Shown: positions 2,675 through 50,590 of the stretch, piece by piece
Numbering within the stretch: position 1 is the first letter of the stretch
Layout of the letters: every line of letters starts with the position of its first letter
IMG/VR virus record: IMGVR_UViG_3300042691_022190
Coordinates: 1 to 63,669 of that record
DNA: 63,669 bases
Origin: a virus
Strand: one strand, 5' to 3'
Translations under genes and position numbers: made by a program
The notes under the pieces: model-generated
What the model was told of the DNA's origin: nothing
The model's input: only the letters and a program-made list of their open reading frames with translations
Databases searched by the model: none

Positions 2675-3181
2675 TTAGCTCATAAATAGGGCAATTTCGG
2701 CCTTACGGCGGCGTATCAATCCCTTAGTAAAAGCACTACCGGGGTTTATGTACATCATAAAGCCATCAGCAATACTTTCCAATGGCTCGTCCCGCAAAAT
2801 ACGCTGGCGTAGGGTAGACCTCTGGAACCCACCTACCCCTATGTTGTAGCTAAGAGCGACACAAGCGTCAAAAAGGCCTTGACGCCCAGATAAATTAGGG
2901 GCAAGTCGAAGAACACCACGCTCAAAACTGCCGAGGAGATTCTTGAAGCGTTCCTCCAGCTCTGGCTTTGACCATACCCGATTGTGTTCTGGTGCAAGGG
3001 GAAACTCCTTCCTTATCATTCCGGTGTAGCCTTCTTTGCGTACTACAGGCAGGCGGATCTGTTCCTGGTGTAGAACCTCACCCCAGCCCACGGTCCAAAT
3101 TGATGCAGGGCACAAATAAGGGCGGTCACGATAGCCCTCAAATTGGTGCATTACATGAATGCCGTTGTCAGAAGTTTTCAT
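2675..3181 (-). CDS. Endolysin, GH24 lysozyme (muramidase)
   Basis: This 168-aa protein is the right size for a T4/P22-type lysozyme that cleaves the MurNAc-GlcNAc bond of peptidoglycan. Glu15 (in FEGYRD), Cys24 and Thr30 have exactly the E-8-D/C-5-T spacing of the GH24 catalytic triad. Cys replaces Asp, as in P1 Lyz-type enzymes. Later motifs SYNIGVGGF and KGLIRRRKAE are also typical. There is no signal peptide or SAR helix, so release should depend on the holin upstream, which its start overlaps (ATGA, 3178-3181). Confidence 0.9.
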   Translation of the reverse strand: MKTSDNGIHVMHQFEGYRDRPYLCPASIWTVGWGEVLHQEQIRLPVVRKEGYTGMIRKEFPLAPEHNRVWSKPELEERFKNLLGSFERGVLRLAPNLSGRQGLFDACVALSYNIGVGGFQRSTLRQRILRDEPLESIADGFMMYINPGSAFTKGLIRRRKAEIALFMS

Positions 3182-3660
3182 TTTTTAAACGACTGGCTTC
3201 CAAACCAAAACGCAATCACGGATGAGAAAATAATGGCTGAGTCCTCATCCCACAAGATTTGCATGGCCTGGTCAAACGGTACGCCCGTCTTCCAGGCGTA
3301 GAAAAACCCAAAGATGTTAACAAACAAGAGCATGGAGAACATGCCGTAGGTAATGACCGGCCGCACACTAGCCCTCATGTTAATCACCCACTGGGAGGCG
3401 CCCTTGCCTATCTCTATATCATGTGCGTACAAGGCCTGGCGTTCCTGGACAGCCGTTTGCATGGCAATTTGATCTGTCCTTATTTCTTCTATTTTAGCCT
3501 GTGCCGCATAGCCGGCGGCCAGCATCTTTAACTCCCGCTCGGTCTGCATATTAGCTAATGCCAGCTCATGGTTCTTGTCCGACTTATCTTGGAAGAAGTC
3601 CAAGATCTTGGGCAAACCGCCCATCAGGAAAGAAATCAGGGTTGAAAGTAAAGTAATCAT
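3178..3660 (-). CDS. Holin (3TM-type, phage/GTA family)
   Basis: This 160-aa protein has an N-terminal hydrophobic or amphipathic segment (LLSTLISFLMGGLPKIL), a charged helical stretch, then WVINMRASVRPVITYGMFS followed by a membrane segment and a last one ending in FWFGSQSFKK. 'N..R..VRP.ITY' and 'FWFGS..F' match the Holin_3TMs family. It would permeabilise the inner membrane and release the endolysin. It overlaps the genes on both sides by 4 bases (ATGA), as in a tight lysis operon. Confidence 0.85.
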   Translation of the reverse strand: MITLLSTLISFLMGGLPKILDFFQDKSDKNHELALANMQTERELKMLAAGYAAQAKIEEIRTDQIAMQTAVQERQALYAHDIEIGKGASQWVINMRASVRPVITYGMFSMLLFVNIFGFFYAWKTGVPFDQAMQILWDEDSAIIFSSVIAFWFGSQSFKK

Positions 3661-4073
3661 GCTTTCCTCGCTGTTTTAACTTCGTTATCGCCCTTGCGGA
3701 CAGTAATCTTTTCCCCGTCCACATCAACCGTCATTGGGTCTCGGTCAGCCATCCTGTCTAGCCGATCAATGAGCTGCTTCATGATGTCAAACTCCGGCTT
3801 ATCCTGCTTAGGCGTTGCCCCGGCGATCCCGTTCATCATAGAAATCAGCGCCGTAAGGGATGCACCTAAGAGTCCCATGACCGCAGCCATCTTGGACTCT
3901 TCAAGGTAAAGGCTTGCGCCAACCCCGATGATCACAATGATGGTGATATAAAAAAGGCCATATCTGCCGATAGACTTACCGGCAACCTCTTTGGCGGTCT
4001 GATTAGCCTCAAGTCGATTTAACTCTGCGGCTATGTCAATCTTGGCTTTCTTTAGGTCTTTGTCTGCAAACAT
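3657..4073 (-). CDS. Two-transmembrane protein of the lysis cassette
   Basis: This 138-aa protein has a charged N-terminal helix (KDLKKAKIDIAAELNRLE), two hydrophobic helices near residues 38-80 (ITIIVIIGVGASLYLEES, then MGLLGASLTALISMM) and a polar C-terminal tail. I do not recognise the family. Position between a coiled-coil membrane protein and the holin suggests a second holin, an antiholin or a spanin partner, which is inference only. The start ATG 4073 overlaps the upstream stop as TGATG. Confidence 0.75.
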   Translation of the reverse strand: MFADKDLKKAKIDIAAELNRLEANQTAKEVAGKSIGRYGLFYITIIVIIGVGASLYLEESKMAAVMGLLGASLTALISMMNGIAGATPKQDKPEFDIMKQLIDRLDRMADRDPMTVDVDGEKITVRKGDNEVKTARKA

Positions 4074-4531
4074 CACCACACCTTTGTCGCTTTAAGAATT
4101 CCGTAAATCAAAGCTGAGATCAAAATAATTATCAGCCACTCATTCCTACTCGCCTTACGATCTGAGTCATATTCTTTTTGTAACTCTTTGCGTTCCCGTC
4201 GCAGTCTCGCCTCTAGATCGTTGACTTCCTGTATTGCCCTACGCCCAAACTCTTTCTCTATCTGTTTAAACGCTTTGTCCTTCTGAGCCTTGATGTCGGC
4301 CAGAATCCTGTACTCGTTGATGGCGTCGATATACATCATGTCCCCACGCCGCTGGACTTCATGTTGACGACGGCGCCAGGCCACGCGGGCGCGCGCCTCC
4401 TCGTCCAAAAAGGCATTGACTTCTTTGGCTGTTTCCTTGATTTCCTTCCCAGCCTTTAGTGCCTCTCTGATACCACCGAGCGCAGTCTGTACGACCTTTG
4501 ACGGGTCGGTTGGATCGGGCAGTTGAGACAT
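4073..4531 (-). CDS. Coiled-coil protein with C-terminal membrane anchor
   Basis: This 152-aa protein is charged and helical with long heptad-like stretches (residues about 20-125, many R, K, E and Q). It ends in one hydrophobic segment, EWLIIILISALIYGILKAT. A C-terminal rather than N-terminal anchor is unlike Rz-type inner-membrane spanins. It sits one TAAATG junction after a 26-aa hydrophobic peptide and just before the two-TM protein, so a role in lysis or envelope contact is likely but not shown. Confidence 0.75.
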   Translation of the reverse strand: MSQLPDPTDPSKVVQTALGGIREALKAGKEIKETAKEVNAFLDEEARARVAWRRRQHEVQRRGDMMYIDAINEYRILADIKAQKDKAFKQIEKEFGRRAIQEVNDLEARLRRERKELQKEYDSDRKASRNEWLIIILISALIYGILKATKVW

Positions 4532-4612: not shown

Positions 4613-4676
4613 GTCACCATGATGAGCACAGCGGCTAAAACAGCCGCAGCCAAGAACCACGCCCCGAACTCTGGCG

Positions 4677-36805: not shown

Positions 36806-36835
36806 TTCCAACATCTCTACCCTGTGAGTTCTAAA

Positions 36836-37570
36836 ATGGCTTACACAGACCAGGAAGTACGGCAATATCTAACCAATAACCTACCTAATGCCTCAGACCG
36901 GCAAATCGCTGCCGAGATGGTTCGTTTTGGCGTTGGCTCAGACCAAATAGCCCGCGTCATGAACCAGACCCCACAGGCCGTTCAAGAACGCTTCGAGGCC
37001 GCTCAAGCCCCTCTTGCAAACACTTCCTTATCCGATAATGACGTTCGCCAGTACCTACTTGATAGGCCCGGCTATACCGATGCCCAGGTCGCATCGGACA
37101 TGATTCGATTTGGTGTAAGCCCCGCCCAAGTATCTCGGGCCACTGGACTTCCTCTCACGGACGTGCAGGCACGGTTTCAGGCCGTTTTGGATCCGCTACG
37201 AGCAACGGCCCGCGGCGCGACAACAACGTACACAAATACCGGGGGTGGCACCACTACAAATGGTGGCACCACAACCACCACTGGCGGTGGTACGGACAAC
37301 CGTACGGTAGTTCAAACAACCCCAATCACCCCGCAGACAACTGCAGCAATGCCTACTCGCTACATCCAGCCTTCTCCCCTGACCGTTGCCGGAGCCCTGA
37401 CTCCTCAGTACACGGAAGTGCCGGCTGGAATTTACAGCCTGGGGGTCCCTTTGTTAAATGTTAGAAACCTGATCAACCTAGCCAGGGTCCCAAGCTACGT
37501 GGCTGCTCCGAGGTCCACGGAAAGTATGACGTTTAACCCGATCACTACAGTAGGCGATCAAGTTATCTAA
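36836..37570 (+). CDS. Protein with two tandem ~65-aa helical repeats
   Basis: This 244-aa protein contains repeat 1 with DQEVRQYLTNNLPNASDRQI and RFGVGSDQIARVMNQTPQAV, and repeat 2 with DNDVRQYLLDRPGYTDAQVA and RFGVSPAQVSRATGLPLTDV. The repeated pattern 'D.(E/D)VRQYL........Q(I/V)A..M.RFGV...Q..R......VQ.RF.A...PL' looks like a small helical DNA- or protein-binding domain. A Gly/Thr linker and the tail GIYSLGVPLLNVRNLINLAR follow. The family is not recognised. It is the first rightward gene; ATG 36836 is preferred to GTG 36824. Confidence 0.7.
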   Translation: MAYTDQEVRQYLTNNLPNASDRQIAAEMVRFGVGSDQIARVMNQTPQAVQERFEAAQAPLANTSLSDNDVRQYLLDRPGYTDAQVASDMIRFGVSPAQVSRATGLPLTDVQARFQAVLDPLRATARGATTTYTNTGGGTTTNGGTTTTTGGGTDNRTVVQTTPITPQTTAAMPTRYIQPSPLTVAGALTPQYTEVPAGIYSLGVPLLNVRNLINLARVPSYVAAPRSTESMTFNPITTVGDQVI

Positions 37571-37640
37571 GCAGTAAAAACCCCTAGCGGTTCGAGTCCC
37601 GATCTTTCTGGCGCCACAAATCTCAGCCGTGCAAAAATAA

Positions 37641-37661
37641 CCCTCGGTTCGATTCCGGGGG
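37641..37661 (+). promoter_or_regulatory. Hairpin covering the ribosome site of the HNH gene
   Basis: CCCTCGG pairs with CCGGGGG over 7 positions around TTCGATT (one G-U). The 3' arm is the G-rich ribosome site for GTG 37670, so folding should block translation. The arm and loop look like a tRNA T-arm. Confidence 0.45.
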
Positions 37662-37669
37662 GAAGCGTC

Positions 37670-38095
37670 GTGCCGTACAAAGACAAGGCCGAAAAAAAGG
37701 CCAAGGACAGCCTGTACAAGAAGGCCTACTACCAGCGTAACAAGGACGCCGTGCAGGCCCGTGTAGCGCGAAACAAGAAGCTCGCGCGGGAGAAATGGAT
37801 CGAGTTCAAGGCCATCCAAAACTGCCACTACTGCGGCGCAAGCCACCCTGCCATCATCGACTTCCACCACGTTGTGCGAGATGGCACCCAGCAGTCCGTA
37901 AACCGCCTGGCGGCAGACAACAAGTGGGGGGCCATCTACCGAGAGGTCAAAAAGTGCATCCCTTTGTGCTCCAATTGCCACAGGGTCCTGCACTGGAACG
38001 AGAGCCGTGGTCGGATGATCACTAAGAACATGGAATTAAGCACGATCAACCGCACTGTGGAGAGTACGAATGACGACGATAGCGGCCCGCTTTAG
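37670..38095 (+). CDS. HNH endonuclease
   Basis: This 141-aa protein starts MPYKDKAEKKAKDSLYKKAY, a basic DNA-binding head. It then has CHYCGASHPAIIDFHHV, CIPLCSNCHRVLHWNE with the HNH residues (His in FHHV, Asn in SNCH, His in CHRVLH) and two Cys pairs for zinc. It may be a homing or packaging-linked nuclease. A GTG start at 37670 follows GGGGGGAAG. Its end overlaps the next gene by 26 bases. Confidence 0.85.
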   Translation: MPYKDKAEKKAKDSLYKKAYYQRNKDAVQARVARNKKLAREKWIEFKAIQNCHYCGASHPAIIDFHHVVRDGTQQSVNRLAADNKWGAIYREVKKCIPLCSNCHRVLHWNESRGRMITKNMELSTINRTVESTNDDDSGPL

Positions 38096-38519
38096 CACCC
38101 TGGAAATCGCGGCCGACAGTCAAGTCTCGGGCGACGACGTCAAGTACTACATCGAAAAGCTAAGGCGCGGCAAGGACTGCATCTTCGGAGGCGCGGGGGA
38201 CCTGGACAAGCTTTTGAAGTTTTACGACTCTGTGCAAAAGAACGGGGAGTTTGACGAGCCGATCGAGGTGGATATCCTGGAGCTGCGCCATGACGGGATC
38301 TACGTCTACGAAAGTACCATCCACCCGGTCAAGATCCGTGGAGACTTCTTCTCGGTGGGGACTGGCTCAGCCTACGCGCTTGCTGCAATGCACCTTGGCA
38401 AAAGCCCAAAGGAGGCAATCGAGATAGCGTCAATCTTTGACCCCGTGACGGGCGGCCCGATCGACGCCATGACCCTTGAGCCGTTGTCCGTGGCCCGTAA
38501 GCCACGGACTAAGAAATAA
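38070..38519 (+). CDS. HslV/proteasome-beta-like Ntn-hydrolase
   Basis: This 149-aa protein starts MTTIAARFSTLEIAADSQVS. Removal of Met would expose Thr2 as the N-terminal nucleophile. Asp16 (AADSQ) and Lys30 (IEKLRR) match Asp17 and Lys33 of the proteasome fold, and FGGAGDLDKLLKFYDS and FFSVGTGSAYALAAMHLGKS match the later HslV/proteasome strands (G-S-G loop). It is shorter than bacterial HslV (about 175 aa). A self-compartmentalised peptidase or inactive mimic is possible. No HslU-type ATPase is encoded in this window. Confidence 0.75.
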   Translation: MTTIAARFSTLEIAADSQVSGDDVKYYIEKLRRGKDCIFGGAGDLDKLLKFYDSVQKNGEFDEPIEVDILELRHDGIYVYESTIHPVKIRGDFFSVGTGSAYALAAMHLGKSPKEAIEIASIFDPVTGGPIDAMTLEPLSVARKPRTKK

Positions 38520-47419: not shown

Positions 47420-47663
47420 CGATCTCATCCAAAGTGGACGGCCACATGATGATTGGAGTGGACTCTCCTCCGTATGCGCCGATGATATTAAAGTCAATGT
47501 ACTCCTGAGCCTCTTCCTCGCTCATACCCTGACCCTGTAGGATTGCTGTGATTTGTTTGCCGTCGTATACGATGCGCTCTACCAGCATGTTTCCGTGCCA
47601 GGTCATGCATATCCCAATAACAGCGGAATCCATGCCTGTTATTTTTAAAAGATCGTCGTTCAA
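47406..47663 (-). CDS. Small protein between primase and helicase (85 aa)
   Basis: It begins MNDDLLKITGMDSAVIGICM and contains VERIVYDGKQITAILQGQGM and YIDFNIIGAYGGESTPIIMW. The pattern 'G...A..G......F......YD...I...L...GM..EEA.E...FNI.GAY.G..TP' is common in small proteins of replication operons. The role is unknown. A 4-base overlap joins it to the primase gene. Confidence 0.75.
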   Translation of the reverse strand: MNDDLLKITGMDSAVIGICMTWHGNMLVERIVYDGKQITAILQGQGMSEEEAQEYIDFNIIGAYGGESTPIIMWPSTLDEIDERP

Positions 47664-49189
47664 AATGGACTTCCTTTCTTCATTTCTGGCGTCTCAAAAG
47701 GTGCATCCTGGCGGGTGAAACGCGGGATCCGCCAGACACGTGTGCTGCGACTTTTAAGAAAAAGGCTTGCTGGCTCTCCGCCAAGGTCCCTGATCCGTTG
47801 TGCGATCTTCGGGGAACTCATTCCCATAAAGTTGTTGCGCTTTAGGTGAGCCTCTAAGTCTTTCATTCGGAAATAGGTCTTGGCCTCTTCCTCGTGCGTC
47901 CATGGCCGGCCGAGAAGAATCTCGTCTTTATCCATGGCCTGTTGCAAGTGTGTAGTGAATTCCTCGACCAGGTCCATGAAGCGTCCGGTGACGGTGGTGT
48001 CTTCCGGTGCGTCTTGAATCTGCTCCAGCTCAACCATTTCCTTTAGCAACGCGTTTAGTGTGGACTCCCAGTCCTGCTTACGCAGCGTGGGTGGTACGAC
48101 GTTAATTCGCTCCATGCATGCACGCTGAAACGACACCTGGTTAAAGAGGTGCTCAGTCTCAAGCTCAATGCGTTTGCCATTTACATCTAAGAACCACAGT
48201 GGAGGCTCGGAGTTGTACTTAGACAACGCACCCATCTGCGGCGAGTCAGGGCCATCTGCACCAACACCAAATTTGCGCGTGCGGCATAGGCCGGAGTTAC
48301 AAAAGCTGTTAATAGGGGCGTCTTTACACTTGTACTTGTAGTCTTTTTTGTTTAGCTGCTTAGTAATGACCTGCAGCTCACTGAGACTAAGCGGTGGCGC
48401 CACAAACTTTTGGTTGTACTCCATCAGCTTGTCTTCCCAGCCAACCGTGTACGCCTTTTTCAAATAAATGCCGATGTTAAATAGGCCGTTGTTCCGTGTG
48501 CCTTCGGGAAAGCCCTGTGAGCACAGGACCTGCAAGCATGGTGGGCCGTCCTTGACCGGGTGATCCGCCTGCTTTGGTTCCTCCGGATACGTCAGTGGAA
48601 TAGCCTGCACGTGTTTGTCGTACAGCTCGTAGAACTCTTCTAACGTGGCCGCTGAGCCGTCGTCCTTGATTGCATAGCGGGTGCCATTGTCGCCCGCAAA
48701 ATACGGCAGGTTCAGGAAGTTGCCCGTATCGCCGCGGTCTACTAGGATCTCGGCCTGCTTTGGAAATATCTCCCGGCCAGACTCACCGAGGATGCTGGCG
48801 CATGCATTCAGATAACGCTGCATGTTCGCCGCCTCGACTGGCTCTTTTGTAAAAAGAAACACGTGTGCTCCGCCAGACTTGCTGCGGCATACAACCAGCG
48901 GCAGGTTGCGTTTGCGAATCTTGTCAACCAGGCCGGCGTGATCGAGCGGGTATTGATCGATGTCGATACATCCCCACGTGCACGTGTTATCTGATCGAAT
49001 TGGAATAATGCCGAGGCTTGGCTCTACACCCTCAAGGTGCTTTCTCCAAAGCTCGTCAATTGGTGGCTTGCGGACAACAACAGCCTTTCCGGCCTGCTTG
49101 CCCGAATCCTTGGCTTTCTCAATTTTGTAGGTGCCATAAGCGATATCCAAGCCAAAGAAAATCGCTTTAAACCGTGTTATGTCGGTCAT
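47660..49189 (-). CDS. Archaeo-eukaryotic-type primase (AEP), TOTE/PriCT-like
   Basis: This 509-aa protein has the AEP motif I WGCIDIDQY, motif II LVVCRSKSGGAHVFLF (Ser-x-His type) and then FLNLPYFAGDNGTRYAI. The middle has a cysteine set (YKCKDAPINSFCNSGLCRTR) that may bind zinc. The end has winged-helix character (YFRMKDLEAHLKRNNFM). Primases of this family prime DNA in phages that lack DnaG. It follows the SSB-like gene and precedes the helicase. Confidence 0.85.
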   Translation of the reverse strand: MTDITRFKAIFFGLDIAYGTYKIEKAKDSGKQAGKAVVVRKPPIDELWRKHLEGVEPSLGIIPIRSDNTCTWGCIDIDQYPLDHAGLVDKIRKRNLPLVVCRSKSGGAHVFLFTKEPVEAANMQRYLNACASILGESGREIFPKQAEILVDRGDTGNFLNLPYFAGDNGTRYAIKDDGSAATLEEFYELYDKHVQAIPLTYPEEPKQADHPVKDGPPCLQVLCSQGFPEGTRNNGLFNIGIYLKKAYTVGWEDKLMEYNQKFVAPPLSLSELQVITKQLNKKDYKYKCKDAPINSFCNSGLCRTRKFGVGADGPDSPQMGALSKYNSEPPLWFLDVNGKRIELETEHLFNQVSFQRACMERINVVPPTLRKQDWESTLNALLKEMVELEQIQDAPEDTTVTGRFMDLVEEFTTHLQQAMDKDEILLGRPWTHEEEAKTYFRMKDLEAHLKRNNFMGMSSPKIAQRIRDLGGEPASLFLKSRSTRVWRIPRFTRQDAPFETPEMKKGSPF

Positions 49190-49235
49190 TCTACTTTCTC
49201 AGTTGAAAGACCGGGGGCGAGCCCCCGGCGGACGT

Positions 49236-50015
49236 TTAGAACGGAATATTACTGGAGGCCTCAGACTCCTCCTGGTGCTTGACTTTTACCTCGCCGGAAC
49301 TAACCGACTGGGCAAACGTTTTCGCAGCGTGATACACGTTCATGTCCTCAACCGAACCAACACGTTCGACCTCCCAACCAAACCACTTACCTTTGTCGTT
49401 AGACTCGCCAACAGTGGTCAGACGGTAGACCTGGCTGTACATCGGAGGCGTATACAAACCATTTGCTCCTTGCAGCTTCACTGACATCATCATGGAGTTC
49501 CACTTGCGGCTTTTCTTGAGCTGCGTGGATTTCATCACGATCAGTGCCGGGCTTGGAACACCCGTCTCGTCAATCACCATGACGTAGTGATTGGCCGTGT
49601 TCTCGATGTAATTACCGTTATCGAGATAGTCTTTGTTATCGCCTGGTTCGCGATGTGTTTTTGAGAGGATATCGCTAGTAGCAGGATAAATCCCCATTGG
49701 TGCGCCACTTCCGCTGCCACGCGGAGCCCATTCAATGTACTGCCGTACATAGGCGGTCGGTACTACAAGAATGCCCTTCTTGCCGTCGAAGAGCTGACCG
49801 GTGACGCTGTTATAAATCATCCCAGGCATTGCGCCATCCACCTCACCAACTTCCGGTGAGGTGTTAGTTAGCAAACGCAGAAACGGAAGCGCGTAGTCTT
49901 CCTGCGTCATGTTTGCAAAACCGTCATGAGCGCTTTCTTCAAAACTGCTTGCAAGCACAAGTGCTCCTGCCTGCCCCTTCTTTACTTCTACTGCTGTCGC
50001 TTGTCCTTTACTCAT
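49236..50015 (-). CDS. Single-stranded DNA-binding protein candidate
   Basis: This 259-aa protein has a beta-rich core (FLRLLTNTSPEVGEVDGAMP, KKGILVVPTAYVRQYIEWAP, HYVMVIDETGVPSPALIVMK) and ends with an acidic tail and NIPF, like the tip of bacterial SSB (DDDIPF). Such a tip binds partner replication proteins. Proteins of this design next to primase and polymerase genes are commonly phage SSBs. A terminator-like run follows in the gap. Confidence 0.65.
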   Translation of the reverse strand: MSKGQATAVEVKKGQAGALVLASSFEESAHDGFANMTQEDYALPFLRLLTNTSPEVGEVDGAMPGMIYNSVTGQLFDGKKGILVVPTAYVRQYIEWAPRGSGSGAPMGIYPATSDILSKTHREPGDNKDYLDNGNYIENTANHYVMVIDETGVPSPALIVMKSTQLKKSRKWNSMMMSVKLQGANGLYTPPMYSQVYRLTTVGESNDKGKWFGWEVERVGSVEDMNVYHAAKTFAQSVSSGEVKVKHQEESEASSNIPF

Positions 50016-50035
50016 TTTTCGTTTTCCTTTTTTCG

Positions 50036-50590
50036 TTAAACAGACTTAATGGTTGCTTTTTGGCCGATGTACAAACCAAAAAGATCCGCAGGGATTGCGT
50101 TTCCACGCTCCACCTGTTCTTTTGCCCACGCCTTGAGAGTCGCGGGCTCTATCTTCTCGGCCTGCTCAGCTGGAAAGCCTTGCGTGCCAAGTAGATTAAT
50201 TAGACGAGCACAAAGCTCGTCTTCGCCGCGTCCAAATCGAACGCTGACGGTGTTCTTGATAATGTCGTCAAAGCCGTGTTCCCTGAGCCATTCATAGGCC
50301 TCCGCACGCCGTGCTTCAGGAATCGAGGCGCTGTAAAATGGCTTGACGGTAACTTGCGAACCGTCATCCATCACAAAGCCCTTCATGCCCAGCTCTGTCA
50401 GTGCCTCTGGAATTGATTCCTCGGTGAGTTTGCGGAACTGTTCTTTGATGCCCTTAAGCACCTGCTCCTGCTCATCGATTTGTTTCTCCAGTTCCTTGGC
50501 GCGTTTGCCGAGAGCCGCAATGCCAGACAGCTTGTCGTCTTCGACTTTGAACGCGTTGGAATCCTGCTCAAATAAATTAGTAAGACTCAT
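50036..50590 (-). CDS. Coiled-coil protein paired with the SSB-like gene
   Basis: This 184-aa protein has a coiled-coil first half (AALGKRAKELEKQIDEQEQV, LKGIKEQFRKLTEESIPEAL) and a compact second half (MDDGSQVTVKPFYSASIPEA, RLINLLGTQGFPAEQAEKIE). The layout 'L..L...I..LE..L......L........IP..M.E.G...F.L.DG....V...Y..SI' is common in phage proteins next to SSB/recombination genes. It may inhibit or recruit host nucleases (Gam-like idea). Unproven. Confidence 0.65.
   Translation of the reverse strand: MSLTNLFEQDSNAFKVEDDKLSGIAALGKRAKELEKQIDEQEQVLKGIKEQFRKLTEESIPEALTELGMKGFVMDDGSQVTVKPFYSASIPEARRAEAYEWLREHGFDDIIKNTVSVRFGRGEDELCARLINLLGTQGFPAEQAEKIEPATLKAWAKEQVERGNAIPADLFGLYIGQKATIKSV

Follow-up and report, generated by a model that had tools for sequence, protein, structure and literature searches.

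A PPH-type proteasome/HslV-like hydrolase, predicted to lack helix H2, in the genome of a tailed phage

The gene at 38070-38519 (+ strand) of the IMG/VR virus record IMGVR_UViG_3300042691_022190, the 63,669 nt of which we call the window, almost certainly encodes a PPH-type Ntn hydrolase, i.e., a proteasome/HslV-like N-terminal-Thr hydrolase of 149 amino acids, as judged from its match to PHROG_1040, its predicted fold, its conserved catalytic residues and its dN/dS values. The PPH family was defined by Fuchs, Alva and Lupas in 2021 (PMC8665760) as proteins of ~140 residues from tailed phages and their prophages, in which helix H2 is missing and a propeptide is absent, without AAA+ interactor and with an uninformative gene context. 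We have judged membership on the testable features of this description, taking PHROG_1040 as a proxy for the published sequence set. The window protein is a new member of the family named in 2021, not new as a kind. PPH is the first branch of the proteasome family to come from viruses; hundreds of sequenced phages carry it, among them well-studied phages of Salmonella, E. coli and Pseudomonas, and the window phage adds a conserved, context-mobile member. Our preferred reading, to which we assign a probability of about 0.6, is that PPH is a stand-alone, ATP-independent Thr peptidase that serves as an accessory factor.

The open reading frame starts with an ATG preceded by a ribosome-binding sequence, GGAGAG, and the predicted protein begins MTTIAARFSTLEIAADSQ. 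Codon comparison against eight relatives yielded dN/dS values of 0.022-0.067, which mark 38070-38519 as a real protein-coding gene under strong purifying selection. Directly upstream is a gene for an HNH endonuclease (37670-38095, + strand; 141 aa, GTG start; PHROG_3106, E 8e-21; PHROG_2255, E 4e-19), the end of which overlaps the PPH start by 26 bp. The two constitute a two-gene unit running left to right, while most genes around it run the opposite way. The ends of the record share an exact overlap of 63 bp and, therefore, the record is probably a closed, complete genome. The nearest named relative is the syntenic phage DSL-LC04 (OR003939), which carries the same HNH-PPH pair, annotated there as HNH endonuclease and ATP-dependent protease. 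The terminase encoded in the window and the synteny with DSL-LC04, the annotation of which includes portal and capsid genes, identify the carrier as a tailed phage.

The leader of the HNH-PPH unit contains two tRNA T-arm-like motifs, GGTTCGANTCC (37589-37599 and 37646-37656, + strand; chance expectation in the window, 0.09), at which ARAGORN finds no tRNA. The second of them folds into a hairpin of 7 bp, the T-loop of which has 7 bases, just 5′ of the HNH start and overlies the likely ribosome-binding region of that gene; comparable motifs occur at the equivalent position in five relatives. Upstream of the unit, 36824-37570 (+ strand) specifies a 248-residue open reading frame for which there is no PHROG family; two segments in its N-terminal part resemble each other, and its middle is rich in Thr and Gly. 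As relatives were seen in only one close-relative contig (L002/L042), this gene is probably lineage-specific. Elsewhere in the window, 47660-50590 (− strand) is a Pam3-like replication module, in which matches to the Pam3 gp33-like and gp34-like families adjoin a TOTE-type archaeo-eukaryotic primase domain.

Over residues 1-143, the PPH protein aligns with PHROG_1040 (“peptidase HslV family”; E 7.4e-28). Pfam and NCBIfam scans with the single protein gave no match, and the assignment to the HslV/proteasome group therefore rests on this phage-specific profile and on the fold. A second profile, built from 17 phage relatives, matches HslV (1.7e-13) and BPH (9e-10), and also proteasome beta, on sequence alone. 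De novo TIM barrels, returned by phmmer when the single sequence was run against the PDB, are spurious, and only the search with the 17-relative profile is informative. A library of defence systems gave no match for PPH.

The single-chain AlphaFold2 model, generated with the window protein and 49 environmental relatives, has a mean pLDDT of 90.9 and a pTM of 0.84. Its top matches by VIA-align are HslV, BPH and proteasome beta, with Z scores of 16.4-18.4 over 134-144 residues; these include E. coli HslV L88A (Z 18.4; 2.5 Å over 138 residues) and Thiobacillus BPH with epoxomicin (Z 17.5). In most rows, the alignment begins at residue 2 of the open reading frame, which is set against residue 1 of HslV and of the beta chains. 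Strands are modelled at residues 3-7, 12-16, 18-21, 24-27, 31-33, 37-42, 68-73, 76-81, 87-89, 93-97 and 131-135, and helices at 45-56 (after strand 37-42), 100-108 and 113-123; the chain ends 14 residues past the last strand. One helix (45-56) is thus present before strand 68-73, which implies that, in the model, HslV helix H2 is missing from PPH, as in the published family.

The sandwich core carries the complete set of active-site residues: Thr2 (Thr1 of the predicted mature protein), Asp16, Lys30 and the oxyanion Gly40, corresponding to the Thr1/Asp17/Lys33 triad and Gly47 described for PPH (PMC8665760), as well as the GTGS loop (97-100) and Asp124. All 17 diverse phage relatives, the most distant of them at 25% identity, have Thr2, Asp16, Gly40, Gly97, Gly99 and Asp124; Lys30 is shared by 16 of the 17. 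An alignment of 50 sequences shows Thr2 and Gly40 in every row and Asp16 in 49; its lysine column is divided because the alignment is shifted in the Medea1-like group, the printed rows of which have a K two residues ahead of that column. The protein is compact and propeptide-free, and 122 of the 122 environmental (IMG/VR) homologues checked have a Met-Thr-Thr start. A sequence-only reading of the window had recognised an N-terminal MTT, Asp16, Lys30 and a GTGS loop in this open reading frame, proposed a phage-encoded HslV/proteasome-like Ntn hydrolase, and held that homologues devoid of the Thr/Asp/Lys set, or a fold other than the Ntn sandwich, would speak against it. All these residues are present (M1-T2-T3, D16, K30 and G97-T98-G99-S100), and since both the catalytic set and, in the predicted model, the proteasome/HslV fold are kept, the proposal withstands its own test.

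In the relative from Microbacterium phage Cassita (gp16; L218, ~4641-4674), the annotated GTG start cuts off the catalytic Thr. Upstream in frame, following AAGGAG, the codons ATC-ACT-ACC-ATT-GCG-GCC would give (M)TTIAA, which suggests that gp16 starts at an ATC codon.

Conservation of the active site does not separate a protease from a ligase, because connectase, a monomeric proteasome homologue that is a protein ligase, keeps a proteasome-like active site (PMC8665760). PPH might accordingly be a peptide ligase or a highly specific transpeptidase of the connectase kind, rather than a general protease, and loss of H2 may favour assemblies other than rings; the model, however, is without the helical S3/S4 insertion of connectase and a substrate motif is not known, so that we regard a ligase as improbable.

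The residues through which HslV works with its unfoldase are well mapped: Phe54, Phe57, Gln114, Ala79 and Lys80 surround the HslU tail (PMC6429459), and Arg86, Arg89 and Lys90 lie at the pore (PMC5777263). In the profile alignment, GGNLTKAAVELAKDWRTDRVL (T. maritima HslV 68-88, including Ala79, Lys80 and Arg86) is a 21-residue insertion without PPH counterpart, and the window protein consequently has neither H2 with the HslU contacts A79 and K80 nor the pore residue R86. The spacing between the oxyanion Gly and the GxG loop is 57 residues in the window protein versus 78 in HslV. Across the wider family, this spacing varies from 57 to 81; the argument from the missing H2 against HslU docking therefore holds firmly for the window protein and those close to it, and less strongly for the whole of PPH. 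In a pull-down with BPH, a close relative that retains H2 without the HslU-contact residues, HslU was not recovered (PMC5777263). Given this and the absent counterpart of HslV 68-88, it appears unlikely from the anatomy that PPH docks to HslU in the known way or enters HslV rings.

Two of the roles floated by the sequence-only reading are affected directly. The phage subunit could replace HslV under the host's HslU and so redirect degradation: HslV provides the closest solved structures, and the phage encodes no unfoldase, so that an ATP-dependent enzyme would have to rely on that of the host. The lack of the 68-88 stretch, with its HslU-tail contacts and Arg86, and the behaviour of BPH both argue against such a hijack, as does the occurrence of relatives in phages of Microbacterium. 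This actinobacterium is expected to be without HslUV. We now consider use of host HslU to have a small chance of being correct. Alternatively, PPH could co-assemble into host HslV rings to block or re-specify them, to which the HslV fold, the small size and the absence of an ATPase of its own would lend themselves. But PPH is without H2, which in the HslV ring lies on the apical and pore side, and the catalytic residues are kept across very distant phages, which a structural poison would not need; a mixed-ring poison is, in our view, highly improbable, more so than the hijack. That these two models are now among the less likely ones is the most useful result of this work: use of the host HslU, a long-standing guess, has become directly testable by the mapping of H2, and less likely.

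The same reading had stated that the genome lacks a partner ATPase, which holds: neither HslU (TIGR00390) nor AAA_2 (PF07724) nor AAA has a match in the window record, and the ATPases among the ten window proteins scanned are a UvrD helicase, an SNF2 helicase and the terminase. With H2 and a phage-encoded unfoldase both absent, PPH is most likely AAA+-independent. AAA_2 was detected in one of the 27 PPH- or RPC-bearing records screened, that of Vibrio phage VnaP. There, a 725-residue ClpA-like double AAA+ protein (L213, 240-2417) is encoded ~50 kb from the RPC gene; it is possible that it is a phage-encoded unfoldase for RPC.

Relatives of PPH are present in about 500 of 50,697 GenBank phage records (E 0.01 or better), and those of the window's subclade are encoded on 178 environmental stretches; two search patterns retrieved no relatives of this subclade from 84,980 bacterial and archaeal genomes. 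The gene context is a different one in most lineages. HNH adjoins PPH in all 17 close-relative loci (~62% identity or more, with a neighbourhood shared with the window) and in none of the 69 loci of the neighbouring group of the same clade (54-62% identity). In that group (e.g., L057, 4395-5381, and L115, 4422-5363), the gene after PPH, which slightly overlaps it, encodes a metallophosphoesterase with an N-terminal HTH-like segment, and next comes a lysis cassette. Its holin-like and endolysin genes are homologous to the window's own lysis genes (2675-4531). In Guernseyvirinae, PPH is located just ahead of holin-holin-endolysin, and in another lineage ahead of PhageMetallopep-DUF2280-terminase; it lies between terminase and portal in phiM5, among head-tail connector genes in one Vibrio phage, by replication genes in KPP10 and Shewanella phage 3/49, and by NAD-metabolism genes in CcrRogue and V10. 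Cassita, too, carries a PPH relative. Across the lineages compared, no upstream or downstream partner gene is conserved. With the context varying by lineage and without a common partner gene, the data fit a mobile accessory gene, the product of which would be self-sufficient. We found no report in the literature of the function of a phage HslV-like protein established by experiment, and the main text of the PAK_P3 transcriptome paper makes no statement on the PPH gene.

Some of these positions could point to late processing of a structural or lysis protein, i.e., to a protease linked to virion maturation or lysis, the former also among the suggestions of the sequence-only reading. The Guernseyvirinae arrangement, the metallophosphoesterase and lysis cassette of the second environmental group, and the locations in phiM5 and the Vibrio phage with the connector genes are in keeping with it. 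In the window, however, PPH is ~35 kb away from the endolysin gene, in the HNH unit on the opposite strand, and elsewhere its neighbours are genes of replication (KPP10; Shewanella phage 3/49) or NAD metabolism (CcrRogue; V10). As a functional clue, proximity to lysis genes is true of two lineages only and absent in most. Moreover, the phiM5 proteins that its depositors mark as seen in particles include portal, scaffold and capsid, whereas the peptidase carries no such mark, and Cassita is annotated with a separate capsid maturation protease. PPH may yet have a transient role in the virion, but virion processing finds no positive support, and we hold a late processing role to be rather unlikely, if somewhat less so than the HslU hijack.

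For the stand-alone peptidase that we prefer, the following course of events can be envisaged. Host methionine aminopeptidase would take off Met1, exposing Thr2 as the N-terminal nucleophile, which Asp16 and Lys30 would activate in the manner of HslV and proteasome beta; as in those enzymes, the amide of Gly40 would form the oxyanion hole. No AAA+ partner would be needed. PPH presumably self-assembles, into a homo-oligomer or a smaller assembly, and in the infected cell may cut a host or phage protein at accessible, unfolded or specific peptide segments, while its gene would move between phages as a stand-alone accessory, here in the HNH-PPH unit. HslV has only weak activity in the absence of HslU, and a relative lacking H2 might require an activator yet to be recognised, a point against the stand-alone model. 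A bolder version, which we offer as speculation and hold to be unlikely, is that PPH is a proteasome-type protease stripped of H2, with an assembly unlike the barrels of HslV, the proteasome and BPH, and that in the phages of many hosts it works, without an unfoldase, as a protease (or ligase) the target of which is a host protein, perhaps one of defence or stress response. If true, it would be a viral proteasome of new architecture, with the first known viral function.

Amongst known systems, RPC, with relatives in phAPEC8-like, Vibrio and Aeromonas phages, has the core and active site in common with the window protein, but RPC includes a C-terminal extension domain, whereas the window protein ends in a short basic tail (residues 139-149). 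HslV (ClpQ) shares the fold and the active site, at ~21% identity for the E. coli protein; however, it is longer (~175 versus 149 residues), possesses H2 (68-88) with HslU-contact and pore residues, and works with a cognate HslU, none of which is encoded by the window phage. BPH is, like the window protein, a propeptide-free Group I proteasome homologue for which no unfoldase was found, but it is bacterial, keeps H2 and carries a long acidic pore loop, while the window protein is phage-borne and appears to be without H2. The published PPH proteins are the closest counterparts, sharing size, tailed-phage origin, absence of a propeptide, the triad and Gly, the absence of H2 and that of an AAA+ partner; nowhere does the window protein fall outside their description, and only in its own clade is PPH paired with an HNH endonuclease.
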